Source: Cerasicoccus sp. TK19100 (GTDB taxonomy: Bacteria; Verrucomicrobiota; Verrucomicrobiia; Opitutales; Cerasicoccaceae). Taken from it: DNA of 64,000 nt. Positions 32,633 to 49,250 of this stretch are shown here, piece by piece. The notes under the pieces are model-generated. The model was not told where the DNA came from and did not search any database. It saw nothing but the letters and a program-made list of their open reading frames with translations. A program made the translations under genes and the position numbers. The number at the start of each line of letters is the position of its first letter. Positions within the stretch are counted from its first letter, which is position 1. The stretch covers positions 496,001 through 560,000 of the forward strand of contig NZ_JAPWDU010000005.1 of the NCBI RefSeq assembly GCF_027257155.1, given 5' to 3'.

Positions 32633-34432
32633 CTAGGCGGCCAGAATTTTTTCAGCCCCGGCGGTGAGCTTTTCGTTCGTCTGCAAATTTAGCGCATCCT
32701 GTTTGGTCTGCAGCTCCTCTTTCGAGAGATTCGTGCTGCGGCGCTTGGTGGTCAGCTCGTAATCGAGCGCCTTCCATTCGCCGAACCAGTTGAGGTCGAA
32801 GATATCACTGCCGAGGGCTTCGAACTGCTGCTTTTGCGCGGCATTGGCGCGGGCCAGGTAGGGCTGGAGGGCGTCGTTTTTCAGCTGCTCCCACTGTCCG
32901 AAGGAGTCCTCTAGCGAGTAGTATTCATTCTGGATGCGGACGCGCTGGCCGTAGTCGCTACTGCGCAGGGATTCGTCGATAAAGGGGTCTTCAGCCTTGG
33001 CGAGCCAGGCGTCGAGCTCGGCCGCCATCTTGTCGCGAATTTTGGCGTGAGCCGGATCATTCGCGAGGTTCTTCATTTGGAACGGGTCCGCCTTGTTGTC
33101 GTAGAGAAACCAGTCGCCAAAGCGGTCCACGGCGTAGGTGTAGCGCTTGCCACGGACGGCGCGGAAGGGGTTGAAATCGCTGCGCTCATCGTCCATGAGC
33201 CGCGAGCGGTAGTAGTTGCGCTTGAAGTTGTTGATTATCAAAAACTGCGACTCCGGGTCGGGAGCGCCGGGCTGGCCGAGGAAAGCCTTGGTGAAGCCCT
33301 GCCCAGTGCAGTGCGCAGGCGCCTCAAAGCCCGCCAGGCCGCAGAGTGTGGGCACGAGGTCGATGGTGCCCAGGTTGTGCTCGGCAATCGCGCCAGCGGG
33401 CACCTTGCCCGGCCAGCGGACGATGAACGGCACGCGAACGGCCTCATCGTAGGGGTTGCCCTTGTTGTAAACGCCGTTGGAGCCGAAGGAACTGCCGTGG
33501 TCGCTCGTGTAAATGAGGATGGTGTCGTCGGCAATGCCGGCGGCGTCGAGGGCGTCCATCATGCGGCCCAGCTCGCGGTCGACGGCGCTGATGTGGCCGT
33601 GGTAGTGGCGGTAAAACTCGTGCTGCTTGGGCGTGTTTCGCTGCTTATCCTCGACGTTGGGGCGGTAGGGCAGGTTGTCGTCCGGGTAGAGCGCGTAAAA
33701 TTCTTCGGGGGAGTCGTCCCAGCGCCAGTGCGGCGGGTTGAGCGAGAGCATCAGCATGAAGGGCTTGTCGCCGCCCGCGTTCTCGTTGACGAAGTCGATG
33801 GCCTGATCGGTCATGCCCACGGCATTGTAGCCGGTCACGGTTTTAAACGCCTCGCCCGAGGGGATGTCGCGCACCTCGGTTTCCCAGTGGTTGTCGCCGT
33901 AAAGCCAATGCTTGAACGTGTCGAAGCCGGCGTGCTGGCAGGTTTCGTTCATCAGGTGCCACTTGCCGACGTAGCCCGTCTGGTAACCGGCGTCCTTAAA
34001 CATGTGCGCGATGGTGGGCGTGCTGACGCCGATAGCGTCCGTGCGGGTGACGGTGTCGTTGCTGATGTAGCCGCTCTGGTGTGGCCATTGACCGGTCAGC
34101 AAAATGCCGCGAAACGGCGTGCACACGGGCGAGGTCGCGCAGGTGTTGTCAAAGCGCGTGCCTTGCTGCGCGAGCTTGGTCATATTCGGCGCGACGCACT
34201 CGGGCATCTCGGTGAAGGGGAGGCTCTGCCAGCGATGCTCGTCGCTAAAGACAAAGACGATGTTAGGGCGTTTTTTAAACATGGTGGAGGCGGTGTCGCT
34301 GGTCGCGCTGGCCGTGCCGGTCGCGGCATTCGCCGACGCGCTTAGGCCCATGGAAGCCGCCGCCGCAGCGGGGCCAAACTTCAAAAAATCCCGGCGCTTC
34401 ATGCCGGGAGTAACAGGGGATTCCTGAGACAT
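32633..34432 (-). CDS. Tat-exported type I sulfatase
   Basis: The 599-residue protein starts with a twin-arginine signal (MKRRDFLKFG at residues 11-20, then an alanine-rich segment). The alkaline-phosphatase-like fold opens with NIVFVFSDEHRWQSLP, and the modification site is SPVCTPFRGILLTGQ with Cys104 in the C-x-P-x-R context needed for conversion to formylglycine. VGKWHLMNETC and TSDHGSSFGSNGVYNKG carry further metal and sulfate ligands. It would remove sulfate esters from an algal-type glycan in the periplasm or outside. Folding before export fits maturation in the cytoplasm. The BNR-4 gene follows. The maturing enzyme (FGE or anSME) is not evident in the window. Confidence 0.92.
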   Translation of the reverse strand: MSQESPVTPGMKRRDFLKFGPAAAAASMGLSASANAATGTASATSDTASTMFKKRPNIVFVFSDEHRWQSLPFTEMPECVAPNMTKLAQQGTRFDNTCATSPVCTPFRGILLTGQWPHQSGYISNDTVTRTDAIGVSTPTIAHMFKDAGYQTGYVGKWHLMNETCQHAGFDTFKHWLYGDNHWETEVRDIPSGEAFKTVTGYNAVGMTDQAIDFVNENAGGDKPFMLMLSLNPPHWRWDDSPEEFYALYPDDNLPYRPNVEDKQRNTPKQHEFYRHYHGHISAVDRELGRMMDALDAAGIADDTILIYTSDHGSSFGSNGVYNKGNPYDEAVRVPFIVRWPGKVPAGAIAEHNLGTIDLVPTLCGLAGFEAPAHCTGQGFTKAFLGQPGAPDPESQFLIINNFKRNYYRSRLMDDERSDFNPFRAVRGKRYTYAVDRFGDWFLYDNKADPFQMKNLANDPAHAKIRDKMAAELDAWLAKAEDPFIDESLRSSDYGQRVRIQNEYYSLEDSFGQWEQLKNDALQPYLARANAAQKQQFEALGSDIFDLNWFGEWKALDYELTTKRRSTNLSKEELQTKQDALNLQTNEKLTAGAEKILAA

Positions 34433-40174: not shown

Positions 40175-40207
40175 AAAAGCGGCTCGGAGGAATCCCGGGC
40201 CGCTTTT
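40175..40207. terminator. Bidirectional terminator between convergent genes
   Basis: AAAAGCGGCTCGG (40175-40187) pairs with CCGGGCCGCTTTT (40195-40207), with one G-T. The A-run on one side and T-run on the other let it serve both the exported protein gene and the minus-strand PstS-like gene. Confidence 0.88.
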
Positions 40208-40232: not shown

Positions 40233-41375
40233 CTAGAGGCCAAGTGACGCCAGTTGCTCTTTCGCCGTGGCTGAGCTGACGGGGAAGTAACCGTTCTTCT
40301 CGACTTTGTCCTGGCCCTGATCGCTGTAAACGTAGCGAATGAACTCGGCGTGCAGCGTTTTGGGCTCGGAGCCGGGGCGGTGGTTGAAGGTGAGGAAGAG
40401 ATTGCGCGAAAGCGGATAGGTGCCGTTGACCGCGTTGGTCTGGTTGGCAGCGACGTAGGAACCGCCGTCGGACAGCGGAGCCACGGCGACGTTTGGCGTC
40501 TTGTAGCCAAAGCCGCTGTAGCCGATGCCGTAGGGGTCATTTTCCACGGAGCGAACCACTTCTTCGGAGCCGGCCAGCTCACGATTGCTGGACTTGAAGT
40601 CGCCCTTCTTGAGGACTTCGTCCTTGAAGAAGCCGTAGGTGCCGGAGGCGCTGTTGCGGCTGTAAACATTGATCGGCTTGTTGGCCCAGGAGCCGGTCAG
40701 GCCGAGGTCACCCCAAGTCTTGATGTCCTGACTGTAGCCACGGCGACGGGTGGAGGAGAAGATCGCATCGAGCTCAGACATCGACAGGCCGCGGTCCTTG
40801 ATCGGGTTGTCCGGGTGGACATAGACGGCGAGCGCGTCAATGGCGACGGGCATGGAGGTCGGCGCATAGCCGAACTTTTGCTGAAACTTCTCTGCTTCGG
40901 CTGGCTTGACGGCGCGGCTCATTGGGCCAAAGTCCGAACGGCCTTCAACTAGAGCAGGAATCGCGGTGGAGGAGCCCTTACCCTCGTGAATCACGCGGAT
41001 GCCCGGGTGGTAGTTTTTGAAGTCCTTTTCCCAGTCGGCGACGATGCCGTCCATGGTGTCCGAACCGATGGAGCGCAAGCGGCCGCGAACAGCGTCTTCC
41101 GGCGCGTAATGCGGGAGGGACGGGTAAACCGGTGCCACGGGCTGCACGCTGGTCGTGCGCACGGTGGTGCTCGGTGCCGACTCGTCGAAGTAAGACTTGG
41201 AAGGCGTGGACGTGGTGGTCGCGTAGGCGGTTTGGGTCTGCATCGGCTCGGAAGCAGGTGCCGAGGATGCCGAGGAGTTATTGGAGGTGCTTTCGGTGCA
41301 ACCGGCGATGAACAGGCTGCCGAAGGCGCTCAGCAAGGCTGTCTGAACGATGCGTGTGATCGGATTGTTTTTCAT
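40233..41375 (-). CDS. PstS-like substrate-binding lipoprotein
   Basis: The 380-residue protein has a lipoprotein signal with lipobox LFIAGC (Cys26) and a low-complexity Ser/Thr-rich linker to about residue 90. The rest is a PBP2-like phosphate-binding domain: IRVIHEGKGSSTAIPALVEG, then RSDFGPMSRAVKPAEAE and YSRNSASGTYGFFKDEVL, which are the phosphate-contact regions of PstS. No pstC, pstA, pstB or phoU is adjacent. Instead it lies 25 bases downstream of the roadblock/SUMF1 gene, so it is likely part of that operon. It may sense phosphate rather than feed a transporter. Confidence 0.82.
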   Translation of the reverse strand: MKNNPITRIVQTALLSAFGSLFIAGCTESTSNNSSASSAPASEPMQTQTAYATTTSTPSKSYFDESAPSTTVRTTSVQPVAPVYPSLPHYAPEDAVRGRLRSIGSDTMDGIVADWEKDFKNYHPGIRVIHEGKGSSTAIPALVEGRSDFGPMSRAVKPAEAEKFQQKFGYAPTSMPVAIDALAVYVHPDNPIKDRGLSMSELDAIFSSTRRRGYSQDIKTWGDLGLTGSWANKPINVYSRNSASGTYGFFKDEVLKKGDFKSSNRELAGSEEVVRSVENDPYGIGYSGFGYKTPNVAVAPLSDGGSYVAANQTNAVNGTYPLSRNLFLTFNHRPGSEPKTLHAEFIRYVYSDQGQDKVEKNGYFPVSSATAKEQLASLGL

Positions 41376-41400
41376 GAATTTTTCTCGTTGGGTTTGCTGG

Positions 41401-43347
41401 TTACAAATCGCTGACGACGAGCACCGGGCGGAAGCCGATGTATTCGGTGCTCACGACGGGGGAGGCTTCGCTGCGGTTGGCGCTGCGGGCCAGGGGGGCG
41501 TCGTCAATAAAGGATCCGCCGCGGACAATTTTCATGGCCAGATCGACGCGGCCTTCGGTCTCGGATGGGCCAGCCGGGTCGGTCTGGGGGCCGGCCGGGT
41601 AGGGCGCGCTCCAGTCGGCGGTCCACTCGGCGACGTTGCCGTGCATGTCATAGAGACCCCATTCGTTGGGGTTGCCCACGGAGCCCACGGCGGCAATGGC
41701 GTCCAGGCCTTCACCGGTGGGGTCGTAGATGTTGGCGTCGCGGCTGGTCAGGCGGTTCGAGCCGTTGTTGTAAGGCGTGGTGGTTCCAGCCCGCGCGGCG
41801 TATTCCCACTCAGCTTCGGTGGGAAGGCGGTAGGTTTGATTGTCCATGGCGCTCAGGCGCTCGCAAAATTCGTTGGCCTGCTCCCAGGTAATGCTGTGCA
41901 TCGGTAGGGTCGCTCCTACCAGCTCGGCGTCTACGCCGTCCAGCTTGGCGCGGTTGCCCATCACTTTTTGCCATTGCTCCTGAGTGACTTCGGTCGTGGC
42001 AATGAAGTAACCCTTCGTAATGGTGACAGCGGTCTGCGTTTCGTCGTTGTCGCGGAAGGCTTCGTTCTCGGGCGAGCCGCGGTTGAACTTACCCGGAGGC
42101 GCGTAGGCGAGCTTCATGCCGAGGGCGTTGGTCATAACTTCGCCTGGCTTGAAACGATTTTGGTAAATGTATTGCTGCGCCGTGGTGCTGGCAGGATCGA
42201 TCTGCAAAACCTTCTGGTAATACTCAAGCGCTGCCGGGACGTTGTTGTTGTCCGCGGCTTTACTGGCCAGGCTGTTTAATTGGCTGAGCAGGTCGCTTTT
42301 GATTTGCGGGATTTTGCTCTTCTGGCTGCTGATGGACTGGACCGCGGTGCTGTAGTTGCCGTTGGCGGCTTCCTGTTTCGCCTGCTTGATTTCGTTCTCA
42401 ATGTTGATCCACTGCTGCGTCGGGTAGTTGCGGATGTCTTCCAGGCCCGCTTGAGCAATGGCGTCATTAAAGTTCGTTTGGCTCGCGGTGACGGCTGCCT
42501 TGCCGTAGGAGATGGCGGACTCATTCCAGAGCTCGTTGGCCTGCTCGTAATTGCCAGCGTTAAAGGCCTGCAGAGCAGATTGTTTATTGGCCAGGGCACG
42601 CGCCATATTCATGGCGTCCAGGTTGTCCGCGTTTTGTTGGTTGGCGATTTTGGCCAATGCCTCGGCACGGTCGCGGGCGATTTCTGCCGTAGCTTCCGTG
42701 ATCTCGGCAGAGCTGGCTGTTTGCTTCTCCGTCGGCTTGGCAGGGGCGGCTGCTGGTGTGGTTTCTGAGGCTGGCTTGGCCTCAGCTATCGCGGGCGCTG
42801 GCGTGGTTTCTTCCTTGCCGCCACCCAGGGTGAACGCGACGCCGGCACCCACCAAAATGAGCACAATGACGATGGCGATAATCGCGCCGACGGGCGGGCC
42901 GGACTTTTTCTGCGGAATGGGGCTCGCGGTTGCGCCTTCGCCGGTTTCGCTAATTTTAAGAAAGACGGTTTCGCCCTTTTTTGATTTTTCCCGGACGATT
43001 CCGGAAGTGTCTGATTTAGCCATGGATTGTCGGTGTTTGCTGAAAGCGTTTTCGATTGAAAGAATATCCGCGCCTTGTCGGCACATGACGGTGATTAGGC
43101 GGTTGTCGGTCCGCGTGAGGTAGAGGTGGCCCGACGCATAGCGCAGCAATACGCAAAAGGATTGCGGGTAGTAACTGTCGATGGCGTAAAAACAATTGAG
43201 AATCCAGGTAGCGAACTCCGTGCGCTTGATGCGGTTGGCGTAGGGGCCCAGATCCTGCGACATGACGGCACCGTTGACGTCCATCACCACGTATCCATCG
43301 ACCCCCTTGGTCTTCCCAATGGTGTCGCGTATGTAGTTAAGCTCCAT
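41401..43347 (-). CDS. Roadblock-like / TM / helical / SUMF1 (FGE-like) membrane protein
   Basis: The 648-residue protein has four parts. Residues 1-105 look roadblock/LC7-like (GKTKGVDGYVVMDVNGAVMS and HLYLTRTDNRLITVMCRQGAD). One membrane segment follows at about 151-174 (PVGAIIAIVIVLILVGAG). A periplasmic helical, TPR-like region spans about 210-395, with ALQAFNAGNYEQANELW and ALEYYQKVLQIDPASTT. The C-terminal 250 residues are a SUMF1 domain: EVTQEQWQKVMG, then RLPTEAEWEYAARAG and GNVAEWTADW with VRGGSFIDDA. The catalytic cysteines of true FGE are missing near the end (ANRSEASPVVSTEYIGFRPV), so it should not mature sulfatases. The start overlaps the upstream roadblock-like gene by 11 bases. 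Confidence 0.75.
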   Translation of the reverse strand: MELNYIRDTIGKTKGVDGYVVMDVNGAVMSQDLGPYANRIKRTEFATWILNCFYAIDSYYPQSFCVLLRYASGHLYLTRTDNRLITVMCRQGADILSIENAFSKHRQSMAKSDTSGIVREKSKKGETVFLKISETGEGATASPIPQKKSGPPVGAIIAIVIVLILVGAGVAFTLGGGKEETTPAPAIAEAKPASETTPAAAPAKPTEKQTASSAEITEATAEIARDRAEALAKIANQQNADNLDAMNMARALANKQSALQAFNAGNYEQANELWNESAISYGKAAVTASQTNFNDAIAQAGLEDIRNYPTQQWINIENEIKQAKQEAANGNYSTAVQSISSQKSKIPQIKSDLLSQLNSLASKAADNNNVPAALEYYQKVLQIDPASTTAQQYIYQNRFKPGEVMTNALGMKLAYAPPGKFNRGSPENEAFRDNDETQTAVTITKGYFIATTEVTQEQWQKVMGNRAKLDGVDAELVGATLPMHSITWEQANEFCERLSAMDNQTYRLPTEAEWEYAARAGTTTPYNNGSNRLTSRDANIYDPTGEGLDAIAAVGSVGNPNEWGLYDMHGNVAEWTADWSAPYPAGPQTDPAGPSETEGRVDLAMKIVRGGSFIDDAPLARSANRSEASPVVSTEYIGFRPVLVVSDL

Positions 43348-43660
43348 TGTTGAGATCCAGTAGGCGCTCCAGAGAGTCCTGGTGTATCACGCCGATACGG
43401 CGGTCACTGCATTCGGCGAATGAAACGGCGTCCTTCGGTTGGATGACATGCATGTCCTGCATCTGGTCCAGGCCCAGGCTTTGCCCGAGCATTTTGCCAA
43501 TGCGCACAAAGTCTGCGGTGGCGGATGTTAAGTCGCTATCGGGTGCTCCCCGGGTTGCGGCGACCGCGCCATCGATACGCAACTCGACCATACTACGCAT
43601 GCCGGTCTTGGACCGAAGTTTGCGCAGAATCTGGCTCTCGTTGACAGATAACTTACCCAT
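43337..43660 (-). CDS. Small roadblock/LC7-like protein
   Basis: ATG at 43660 is preferred over 43702, giving 107 residues starting MGKLSVNESQILRKLRSKTG. The pattern MRSMVELRIDGAVAATRG, then ADFVRIGKMLGQSLGL and MHVIQPKDAVSFAECSDRRIGVI fits the helix-sheet-helix of roadblock domains as in MglB, though similarity is weak and my call is from pattern alone. Roadblock proteins often dimerise and regulate small GTPases. The gene overlaps the roadblock/SUMF1 gene by 11 bases, so they are translationally coupled and may heterodimerise. Confidence 0.5.
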   Translation of the reverse strand: MGKLSVNESQILRKLRSKTGMRSMVELRIDGAVAATRGAPDSDLTSATADFVRIGKMLGQSLGLDQMQDMHVIQPKDAVSFAECSDRRIGVIHQDSLERLLDLNNGA

Positions 43661-43990
43661 AAATCCGAGTAAGCGAAACCGCCCTGTCGCGGCAGAGTCC
43701 AATACAAACGAAGTGCTTCACCGAACTTTGACATTCGTAACTTTTCCGACTCAATGCGCCGCGTTTTCTCTACAAGATTCTCCGTAGTGGAAAAGTCGTG
43801 CAGCCCTATTCAGCACTCGGATAATACTCGTTTTACGCGTTCGTAACTTACTCGTAACCAATCAGTAAAGCAATGTTCCGAATGCGTTAAATGTCCGCTG
43901 TATACTCGAAAAGCTGTCGACTTTGGAATCGGATGATTCAACTTGGTGGGTAAGGAGACTGCTTTATTTTCTATTTGAAATTTTGATGGT
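43661..43990. other. 330-base divergent intergenic region
   Basis: No gene is supported. The stretch carries TCGTAAC three times, in contexts TTCGTAACTT twice and CTCGTAACCA once, the latter two side by side at about 43840-43860, and a TATACT at 43901-43906 that could be a -10 box for the coiled-coil gene. It probably holds promoters for both the roadblock operon and the 43991 gene. Confidence 0.35.
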
Positions 43991-44596
43991 ATGTTAGGAC
44001 GGAGATCAGCATTTCGTGAGTATTCATTATACGAACTGTTAAGTGAATCAAAACCTGAGCATCACGAAGGAATTCGTGAGCTCTGGGGCAATACCGCCGT
44101 GCATTACCTCGTCGTATTCGGGAAGAAACGAATGGGCGAAAAGGCGATTCTTTCCGTTGGTCCCGATCTTGACTATTGCTCGTTGGACGAAGTCATGGAT
44201 CTCGTTCTGGACGGCCTGCGCGCCATCGGCTATGTAAAGTGTCTGGCCCTGGAGCAGGCTGCCCGCGAAGGGGTGGTTGCCGAAGCCACGCGCCAAGTGG
44301 CGCAGGAGCAGCGCCGCATGCATGAGGCCAAAGAGCAGGAGCGTATGCGCGCCATGGAAGCCCGGGATGCCGATGAAGCCTGGCAGATGATCCGCGGGCG
44401 CGAAGCCGAGCTGGATCAGCGCGAGGCGGAATTGCGCACCCGCGAATCTTACATCGAAGAGAGCGAAAACAAGCTTTCGGAGATCGCCCAGTCTCACTAC
44501 GAGACCGAGAACGAGCTAGCCCAGCGCGAGGAAAGCCTTCGCAAATGGCAACTCCGCCTCGAAGCCCGCGAAGCGCTCCTGAGCGCCAAGGGTTAA
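43991..44596 (+). CDS. Unknown protein with long C-terminal coiled coil
   Basis: The 201-residue protein has an N-terminal globular part of about 95 residues (LYELLSESKPEHHEGIREL, then VHYLVVFGKKRMGEKAIL and LDEVMDLVLDGLRAIGYVK). It is followed by about 100 residues of uninterrupted charged coiled coil (REAELDQREAELRTRES and similar). I do not recognise the globular part. No Shine-Dalgarno is clear at this start. It diverges from the roadblock/SUMF1 operon across a 330-base gap and may belong to the same system. Cytoplasmic. Confidence 0.65.
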   Translation: MLGRRSAFREYSLYELLSESKPEHHEGIRELWGNTAVHYLVVFGKKRMGEKAILSVGPDLDYCSLDEVMDLVLDGLRAIGYVKCLALEQAAREGVVAEATRQVAQEQRRMHEAKEQERMRAMEARDADEAWQMIRGREAELDQREAELRTRESYIEESENKLSEIAQSHYETENELAQREESLRKWQLRLEAREALLSAKG

Positions 44597-44602
44597 GGGG
44601 CG

Positions 44603-45454
44603 CTACTTGCCAATCGCGTCGATCTCGACCAGTAGGCCGTCGACGTCCGCGGGTGTAATGTTCGCCAAGTTGTCGGCTTCGAATAGTTGGTCTTCGATGT
44701 CGATGTTCAGGCGGCTCTTGAGCACCTTGAAGACGGAGATTGTGCCGGTATCGAGATTGGTCATTACGGCAAAGCGTGGGCGCACGGTTTTGCCATCGAT
44801 GTTGACGGACTCATATTCGTAGGCTTGCAGTTCTTTGGCTGGCAGGTCGTCGCCTTCGTCGTCGTAGAACTCGATTTTGCGCACCTCAAAAGTCGTGGGG
44901 TCCAGGAAGATGTTGCGGTAGGCGTATTGGCTATCGGTGTCTTCAGCGGGGCGGGCCTGGACGACCGCGCAAATTTCCCCTTGGGCGACGCCATCGGGCA
45001 TGCGGGTGTAAACGTAGTTGCCCGGCGTTTCGCGAACGAGGTCCTCGTAAGCAAAGTCCGACCCGAGGAAGTTGCCCGAGCCGGCGGTGCTCAGCTTGAG
45101 CGGTTTGCCTTGGGCGGGCAGGAACAGGTATTGGTCAATCGATTCGCCATCGACGTTGGTCAACACGCTGACGCCTTCCACGTCGGTGGGGCGCACCATG
45201 CGGATCAGATAATCGTAGGAGCCGTCACTGGTTTTTTCGGTAAGGGCCAGGAAACGCTTCTTTATGATTTCGTCGGTCGGCGTCTCGGTTTCAAAGGTCT
45301 TCAGTTCAATGAAGGCGAGCTCGGAGTCCACTGCTTGAGTGGCTACATATTGTTCGATGAGCTCGGGGCCATCCATTGCGGCAACGTCATCGGCAGCAGC
45401 GATGAAAGGCGTGATGGCAAAGGCGAGGGACAGAGTCAGCGTCGTTTTAATCAT
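44603..45454 (-). CDS. LolA-like outer-membrane lipoprotein-sorting family protein
   Basis: The 283-residue protein has a signal peptide (LTLSLAFAITPFIAAADD). The mature part is a beta-rich fold of the LolA/LolB-like superfamily, with KTSDGSYDYLIRMVRPTDVE, then VDGESIDQYLFLPAQGKPLK and GSGNFLGSDFAYEDLV. LGSDFxYEDL is a signature of the LolA-like family often annotated as outer membrane lipoprotein-sorting protein. Many such proteins act with RND exporters or lipid transport; no partner is adjacent here. It is convergent with the coiled-coil gene, six bases apart. Confidence 0.82.
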   Translation of the reverse strand: MIKTTLTLSLAFAITPFIAAADDVAAMDGPELIEQYVATQAVDSELAFIELKTFETETPTDEIIKKRFLALTEKTSDGSYDYLIRMVRPTDVEGVSVLTNVDGESIDQYLFLPAQGKPLKLSTAGSGNFLGSDFAYEDLVRETPGNYVYTRMPDGVAQGEICAVVQARPAEDTDSQYAYRNIFLDPTTFEVRKIEFYDDEGDDLPAKELQAYEYESVNIDGKTVRPRFAVMTNLDTGTISVFKVLKSRLNIDIEDQLFEADNLANITPADVDGLLVEIDAIGK

Positions 45455-47954: not shown

Positions 47955-49250
47955 ATGCCCCCGCCGCCGAATATTCTCTTCATCTTCACGGACCAGCAGC
48001 ACTGGCAGGCAATCAGCGAGCGCGATGTCACGTTTCGCACGCCGAACCTGGACCGACTGTCTGCGGTGAGCACGGTCTTTAGCCGTGCGTATTGCCCCAC
48101 GCCGCAATGCTCGCCCAGCCGGTCGTCGATCATGACGGGGCTGTATCCCTCGAAGACCGGCGTCATGGGCAACGTCGGTGCCAAGGGCGGCGAGCCGCTG
48201 AGGATGCAGACCATCGCGCCTGCCTTGCAACGAGCTGGTTATTATACCGGCTACTTTGGCAAGTGGCACCTGGGCAGCGAAGCCATCGCGCAAGCCGGTT
48301 GGGATGTCGCCGATGGGCCGGGCTTGGGGGAGGCCTTTAACGATCCAAACACGACGCAGCGCTCGGTCGAGTTCCTGCAAACGGCTCCGGAGGATAAACC
48401 CTTTGCGCTGTATGTCTCGCTGAACGACCCGCATGATATTTACCATATTCCCAAGGTCATGCATGAGCCGCCAAGCGGCGAAGCGCCGCTGCCTACGAGC
48501 TGGAGCAAAGACCACGCGAAGACCGCCAAGGCGCAGGGCCAATTTATGCGCGAAGACCAAGGCAAAGTCATTGTCGATGAGCCTGAGCAGAGCTGGCTGC
48601 GTTACCGTGAATACTATCGTGAAAAAGTGGCGCTGGTCGATGGCCGCATCGGCGAGGTGCTCGATGCCTTGGAGCAGACCGGGCGCGCCGAAAATACCTT
48701 GATCGTCTTCACCTCGGATCATGGCGATCAGGACACCCAGCAGCGGCTGATTTTCAAAGGCCCCTTCATGTATGACTACACGCTGCGGGTGCCGCTGATG
48801 ATCAAGCTTCCCGGGCAAACGGCCCGCCGCGAGTGTGCGTTCCCAAGTGTCAACGTGGACCTCGTGCCAACACTGGCCGAGGTTGCGGGGGCGGTGATTG
48901 GCGCGGTCGATGGCGTGTCGCTGCTGCCCTTGCTCACGGGCCAGGGCGAGCCGCCCACACGGGAGTTTGTCTTTGCGCAATATTACTCCAAGCAGCAGTG
49001 GGTGAACCCGATTCGCACCGTCGTCGGCGAGCGTTACAAATACAATCGCTACCTCAGTGGCGAAGAGGAACTTTACGACTTCGACGCCGACCCCGGCGAA
49101 ATGAACAATCTCGCCGCGAACCCCGGCCATGCCGATGTGAAAGGTGCCTTGCTGGGCGCGCTGGAGAAATGGATGCTCGCCAATGACGATCCGTTTTACA
49201 CCTTAGGCCACACTGATCGCGATGGAAACCCAATCGAACGCCATGTCTGA
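47955..49250 (+). CDS. Type I sulfatase without signal peptide
   Basis: The 431-residue protein starts directly with NILFIFTDQQHWQAIS, the first metal-binding strand. The formylglycine site is PTPQCSPSRSSIMTGLYPS with Cys52 in C-x-P-x-R. TGYFGKWHLGSEA and FTSDHGDQDTQQRLIFKG carry the other conserved ligands. The absence of any N-terminal leader implies a cytoplasmic enzyme, unlike the Tat-exported sulfatase at 32633. It lies between the GH78 and LamG genes, so desulfation of rhamnose-containing oligosaccharides is the natural guess (ulvan or rhamnan sulfate). The stop overlaps the next gene's ATG by eight bases. Confidence 0.92.
   Translation: MPPPPNILFIFTDQQHWQAISERDVTFRTPNLDRLSAVSTVFSRAYCPTPQCSPSRSSIMTGLYPSKTGVMGNVGAKGGEPLRMQTIAPALQRAGYYTGYFGKWHLGSEAIAQAGWDVADGPGLGEAFNDPNTTQRSVEFLQTAPEDKPFALYVSLNDPHDIYHIPKVMHEPPSGEAPLPTSWSKDHAKTAKAQGQFMREDQGKVIVDEPEQSWLRYREYYREKVALVDGRIGEVLDALEQTGRAENTLIVFTSDHGDQDTQQRLIFKGPFMYDYTLRVPLMIKLPGQTARRECAFPSVNVDLVPTLAEVAGAVIGAVDGVSLLPLLTGQGEPPTREFVFAQYYSKQQWVNPIRTVVGERYKYNRYLSGEEELYDFDADPGEMNNLAANPGHADVKGALLGALEKWMLANDDPFYTLGHTDRDGNPIERHV

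Follow-up and report, generated by a model that had tools for sequence, protein, structure and literature searches.

The 64,000-nt stretch of DNA analysed here (the window) comes from the marine verrucomicrobial bacterium Cerasicoccus sp. TK19100 (contig NZ_JAPWDU010000005.1, positions 496,001 to 560,000), and between its positions 40233 and 43660 it carries three consecutive genes on the minus strand. In gene order, these encode a small roadblock-like protein (RbA), a 648-residue membrane protein in which a second roadblock-like domain (RbB) is joined to transmembrane (TM), TPR-like and SUMF1 parts, and a PstS-type lipoprotein. The RbA gene overlaps that of the 648-residue protein by 11 bp (43337-43347), and 25 bp (41376-41400) separate the latter from the PstS gene. 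An earlier note, made from the sequence alone, had described these lengths, positions and spacings together with a divergent coiled-coil gene, and all are as described. The features of the three-gene set are:

43337-43660, minus strand: RbA, 107-residue roadblock-like protein (P0001), first gene of the operon; 70-76% identical to its orthologues in G001-G003, with a shared start
41401-43347, minus strand: 648-residue type-II membrane protein (P0002) with RbB, a juxtamembrane segment, TM helix, TPR-like region and SUMF1 domain; relatives of the same architecture in G075 and G047
43033-43347, minus strand: RbB roadblock domain, residues 1-105 of P0002, cytoplasmic; its best-conserved part (85% mean identity in the genus), assigned by family profile, AlphaFold and Foldseek
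42949-42972, minus strand: motif ETVFLKIS, residues 126-133, between RbB and the TM helix; kept in a second family (loci L190, L192)
42823-42891, minus strand: TM helix, about residues 153-175, the only one, with a hydropathy peak of 3.0 and poor sequence conservation (42%)
42148-42681, minus strand: periplasmic TPR-like region, residues 223-400
41422-42099, minus strand: SUMF1/FGE-like domain, residues 417-642 (PF03781, E 3e-39)
40233-41375, minus strand: PstS-type lipoprotein (P0003, TIGR02136), third gene of the operon, lipobox FIAGC, without adjoining pstCAB

The three genes and the divergent gene, which encodes a 201-residue protein, occur in the same order in all four Cerasicoccus genomes compared (G000-G003). 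The start codon of RbA is the ATG at 43660, its orthologues begin at the equivalent position, and the overlap with the following gene is likewise 11 bp in G001-G003. Outside the genus, G075, from a different family, has the three-gene set with a PstS that is a tandem of two domains, and in G047 the RbA gene and the SUMF1 fusion are followed by the start of a lipoprotein, the contig ending before any PstS domain. Co-conservation of the set in related genomes, the lack of which would have refuted the earlier note, is thus documented in two families (G000-G003 and G075), and the RbA-RbB/SUMF1-PstS arrangement is more than chance. Within the genus, the identity of the 648-residue protein, whose closest named record is from Cerasicoccus maritimus (74% identity), is 85% in the N-terminal domain, 83% in the juxtamembrane segment, 75% in the SUMF1 domain, 61% in the TPR-like region, 42% in the TM helix and 33% in the linker. 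As the RbB domain and juxtamembrane segment exceed all other parts, conservation is strongest on the cytoplasmic side. ETVFLKIS, which precedes the TM helix on the cytoplasmic side, is common to both families and is possibly a docking or phosphorylation site.

A profile of the RbB family (A7) aligned over the full domain length with two roadblock structures in the PDB, 7yh1 from an Asgard archaeon (E 0.0025) and dynein LC7 (E 0.003); two peroxidoxin chains outscored these, but across 43 residues only. Searched singly, the RbB domain had the Streptomyces roadblock protein cvnB5 as its sole PDB match (E 0.57). AlphaFold, run on alignments two rows deep (the window and L005 sequences), predicted an a-b-b-(a)a-b-b-b-a topology at a predicted local distance difference test (pLDDT) score of 72.5, and mostly roadblock chains led the list returned by Foldseek for this model, at weak E values of 0.015 or worse. 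Sister RbB proteins matched PF03259 at E 0.007-0.03, under a curated cut-off that is a threshold of the model and not a property of the fold; the window protein was not among these matches. With the matches under that cut-off, we treat RbB as roadblock-like but diverged, and do not count it as a member of the Pfam family. The roadblock character that the earlier note had read into the N-terminal domain is supported by family profile, predicted topology and the weak Foldseek list. RbA alone is too diverged for Pfam: nothing useful was returned for it by Pfam or single-sequence PDB searches, and its search against the PDB gave no roadblock match. Comparison of the RbA and RbB families by hhalign gave an alignment across the whole domain (E 4.5e-5, probability 69%). 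The system appears to have its fold in common with MglB and CvnB.

Of the remaining parts of the 648-residue protein described at the outset, the SUMF1 domain is certain, the single TM helix is clear, and the TPR assignment has one weak TPR_2 match at residues 358-386 (E 4e-4), under the cut-off. The SUMF1 domain has TvpA, PvdO and PorK/GldK as its nearest solved chains. It lacks the catalytic Cys pair of formylglycine-generating enzyme (FGE), as the note had stated; the region RGGSFIDDAPLARSANR has no Cys, and C495 is the sole Cys in the domain. A reading as FGE was rejected because this pair is absent, and a function in binding or docking is more likely for the domain than a catalytic one. 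It shares the SUMF1 fold with FGE, PvdO, PorK/GldK and TvpA but differs from them in its fusion, through the membrane, with a roadblock domain. Two sulfatase-like genes, at 32633-34432 and 47955-49250 of the window, with the C-x-P-x-R motifs CTPFR and CSPSR, flank the region. Sulfatases with such motifs require an activating enzyme, and the Cys-less SUMF1 domain is unlikely to be the activator of these two.

The lipoprotein scores 221.3 bits against TIGR02136 (cut-off 206.6), which makes its classification as a PstS certain, and it aligns at E 1e-94 to 4omb and 4pqj, both of them phosphate-binding chains. The motifs GSDT, GSST, GPMSR and RNSxSGTYG, which we take to form the phosphate pocket, are all kept. 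The genome has a separate pstS-C-A-B operon (gene order read; permease and ATPase named by eye) with its own PstS, making P0003 a second, orphan PstS. A further connection to phosphate is suggested by the region upstream of RbA:

43841-43858, minus strand: GTTACGA-N4-GTTACGA direct repeat with an 11-bp period, in the interval that separates RbA from the divergent gene; no other exact copy occurs in the window

Three copies of the 7-mer GTTACGA are present in the 64-kb window, and all are in the 330-bp interval just named. Two of them make up the 7-4-7 direct repeat, an arrangement that Pho boxes have in other bacteria. When 270 kb of sequence were scanned, the next-best repeats, with 13/14 and 12/14 matching positions, lay a short distance 5' of pstS in G003 and G004. 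A repeat resembling those at pst promoters hints at a possible link to the Pho regulon. The earlier note had suggested that the set could sense phosphate or another anion. Indirect support for phosphate comes from the intact pocket motifs of the orphan PstS, from the presence of another PstS within a separate pstSCAB operon and from the pst-like promoter repeat; phosphate sensing itself is something we infer.

The pairing of RbA with RbB extends well beyond the PstS loci. Among 346-373 genomes sampled from the order Opitutales, RbA and RbB profile searches gave matches in 20-22 genomes (9 with a first, narrower RbB profile), tandem RbA-RbB pairs being present in ~6% of the genomes; sampling at the level of the class yielded relatives in another eight genomes. 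The RbA family has 25 or more members, with RbB directly downstream in 25/25 of the first loci, and the gaps between the two genes range from -14 to +50 bp over all loci. By phmmer, the ammonium transporter Amt adjoins 12 pair loci, often with a receiver + AAA-like protein in between and in three cases with GlnK, and rhodopsin, a light-driven pump, and MreB each lie beside 4 pairs. SUMF1 and PstS are beside 6 pairs. Examples checked in Pfam confirmed Amt, rhodopsin and receiver. The genome that contains the window has exactly three RbB matches, one each at PstS, Amt and rhodopsin. Traces are also found outside the order: in L245 an RbA-like part fused to another domain is followed by RbB, Amt and GlnK, and in L252 an RbB-like gene adjoins Amt. 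In a tree of joined RbA+RbB sequences, from which L245 and L246 were left out, the SUMF1/PstS pairs form one branch (100/99) that spans two families, the Mre pairs, all from one family, group together (98/99), as do the rhodopsin pairs (92/97), and the Amt pairs are spread; some branches are long, and fine placement is unsure. The SUMF1/PstS set is one conserved branch of a wider roadblock-pair family that is apparently undescribed. The earlier note knew of no described system with this set, and we found no relevant paper in the open-licence literature on roadblock proteins with Amt, rhodopsin, PstS or Verrucomicrobia. The set is not a one-off, however, as it has sister branches at Amt, rhodopsin and MreB.

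Several of these loci have features of their own. At the Amt pairs, the receiver + sigma-54-activator-like protein (L189:6321-7571 and relatives) has, by reading, apparently lost its Walker A motif (GEEGSEFE), and is possibly a pseudo-AAA regulator placed between the roadblock pair and Amt. In L198, L199, L200 and L255 (G057, G359, G329 and G311), all from one family, the pair and a receiver/AAA-like gene are divergent from mreBCD. The rhodopsin beside the pair in G061 (L195:8387-9123) is split into two open reading frames in different frames, consistent with a frameshift or an assembly error. In L245 and L246 (G534 and G669), the RbA-like part is located inside a 230-residue protein, the start of which resembles DUF4388 by eye, with RbB next. 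A strong Pfam roadblock match (64 bits) at G003:C13:47050-47304 is present in G003 only; it differs from the diverged pairs and is possibly a gene of the conservon type acquired by transfer.

To our knowledge, nearly all roadblock proteins described so far act with small GTPases or dynein, and the earlier note had linked the set to GTPase regulation. A search for MglA relatives, which did not extend to other small GTPases, gave no match at E 0.1 in any of 11 pair-bearing Opitutales genomes. The query was a relative from the wider class, and the positive control worked, with an MglA relative in 7/7 wider-class genomes at identities of at least 79%. No GTPase gene was recognised by eye beside the first pairs. 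MglA was rejected as the partner, and with none found in pair-bearing genomes, a role for RbA-RbB as GTPase-activating protein (GAP) of MglA is not supported. The pairs resemble the MglA-MglB polarity system of Myxococcus and Thermus in consisting of small, putative roadblock/LC7 proteins; those of that system work as dimers and at times are encoded by two MglB genes per MglA (PMC4316618). They differ from it in the absence of a detectable MglA, in matches to PF03259 that remain under the cut-off, and in having Amt, rhodopsin or PstS/SUMF1 as partners. The Streptomyces conservons (CvnA-D) likewise place a roadblock protein beside a membrane input protein, but their defining MglA-type GTPase was not found with RbA-RbB pairs. 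A survey from 2014 knew of no characterised orphan among the MglB-type proteins (PMC4316618).

We tentatively propose that the three gene products form an envelope-spanning complex in which a membrane-tethered roadblock heterodimer, working as a scaffold and not as a GAP for MglA, links the phosphate status of the periplasm with a partner in the cytoplasm, and put the chance that this is correct at a little under one half. RbA and the RbB domain would form a cytoplasmic heterodimer, as their tandem co-conservation and roadblock biology suggest, with RbB anchored through the one TM helix to a periplasmic TPR-like/SUMF1 arm on which the orphan PstS, binding phosphate, would dock. The membrane protein would then relay phosphate status to the roadblock pair, and the pair would recruit or release a cytoplasmic partner. 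Ragulator (LAMTOR1-5), in which membrane-held roadblock heterodimers act as a nutrient-sensing scaffold (PMC5696360), offers an analogy but not a claim of kinship; it is eukaryotic and operates with Rag GTPases. The front end would resemble that of PhoR-PstSCAB-PhoU, in which PstS binds phosphate, but the PstS of Cerasicoccus is an orphan, and the membrane protein next to it has roadblock and SUMF1 parts and no kinase. For ammonium (Amt with the receiver/AAA-like protein) and for light (rhodopsin), sister pairs may play a corresponding part. Extended in this way, tandem roadblock pairs would be a general, MglA-independent adaptor of Opitutales, with traces outside the order, that serves phosphate, ammonium and light through partner-specific RbA-RbB heterodimers and is a counterpart of Ragulator in logic; this broader idea is possible but more doubtful. 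A paired roadblock family apparently without MglA, located beside Amt, rhodopsin or PstS and with all three in one genome, suggests an undescribed link between food and light supply and the cell interior that dispenses with the usual switch enzyme. It also makes testable whether bacteria use roadblock heterodimers as nutrient-input scaffolds, as eukaryotes do in Ragulator.

Several observations weigh against this proposal. VIA-align of RbB gave no Z of 5 or more and placed unrelated chains at similar Z, the AlphaFold model of RbA is poor (pLDDT 49), and RbA is tied to the putative fold solely through its family profile. The complete SUMF1/PstS version is present in 5/373 genomes of the order, plus G047 where the contig end intervenes, and at the MreB-side pairs the partner is neither a nutrient nor a light input, a misfit to the nutrient-input rule. 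The GTPase search was confined to MglA relatives. The GTTACGA repeat is suggestive only, because its unit was picked post hoc from the window, overall counts at N4 spacing are not above those at other spacings, and the 11-bp repeat is absent from G001 and G002. The PstS could also serve in transport only. In such an arrangement, the SUMF1 arm would hold an additional PstS that captures phosphate with high affinity, and the transporter would be tuned or clustered by the roadblock pair, as perhaps for Amt; the intact pocket motifs, the double PstS in G075 and the GlnK at some Amt-side pairs are consistent with this, but pstCAB does not adjoin and a PstS is already encoded in the pst operon at another locus, and we consider it rather unlikely.

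The pair might instead be a positioning or structural scaffold without signalling, the membrane protein anchoring roadblock dimers to place cell-wall or transport machinery, with PstS as cargo or neighbour. SUMF1-fold proteins such as PorK/GldK, which the SUMF1 domain matches, serve in envelope ring structures, in keeping with such a role. Four pairs of one family lie beside MreBCD and roadblock proteins set polarity in Myxococcus (PMC10329633), yet most pairs have Amt or rhodopsin rather than shape genes beside them, and in the Mre loci MreB sits across a divergent promoter from the pair, which leaves this explanation unlikely, if worth keeping in view. Koonin and Aravind (as cited in PMC4316618) connected Roadblock/LC7 proteins broadly with the regulation of NTPases, and RbA-RbB could retain that classical role as GAP or guanine nucleotide exchange factor of a small GTPase unrelated to MglA. 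This we regard as improbable given that MglA relatives are detected in 0/11 pair-bearing genomes, that no GTPase gene was seen by eye beside the first pairs and that the receiver/AAA gene at Amt pairs appears to lack Walker A.

The three-gene set is bordered by the following features:

43991-44596, plus strand: divergent 201-residue protein with a globular N-part and a coiled coil, conserved in G000-G003
43729-43741, minus strand: GTTACGAATGTCA element, which precedes RbA at an identical position in each of the four Cerasicoccus genomes
40175-40207, no strand assigned: hairpin of 13 pairs with a T-tract, directly 3' of the PstS gene, from a hairpin scan

A scan for sigma-70 promoters gave no match. 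The hairpin is likely the end of the operon; the total found by the scan was no greater than in shuffled sequences (9 vs 7.0). PADLOC returned weak matches only, for the divergent coiled-coil gene, and a defence system was rejected. Relatives of the 201-residue protein are encoded by the gene directly before RbA in two rhodopsin operons (L254, E 3e-6; L201, E 1e-4), and its N-part alone gave E 9e-4 and 0.007, respectively. Convergent with the divergent gene, at 44603-45454 of the window, is a gene for a periplasmic protein that by eye is LolA-like (outer-membrane sorting), and such a gene is also near the divergent gene in G001 and G003.
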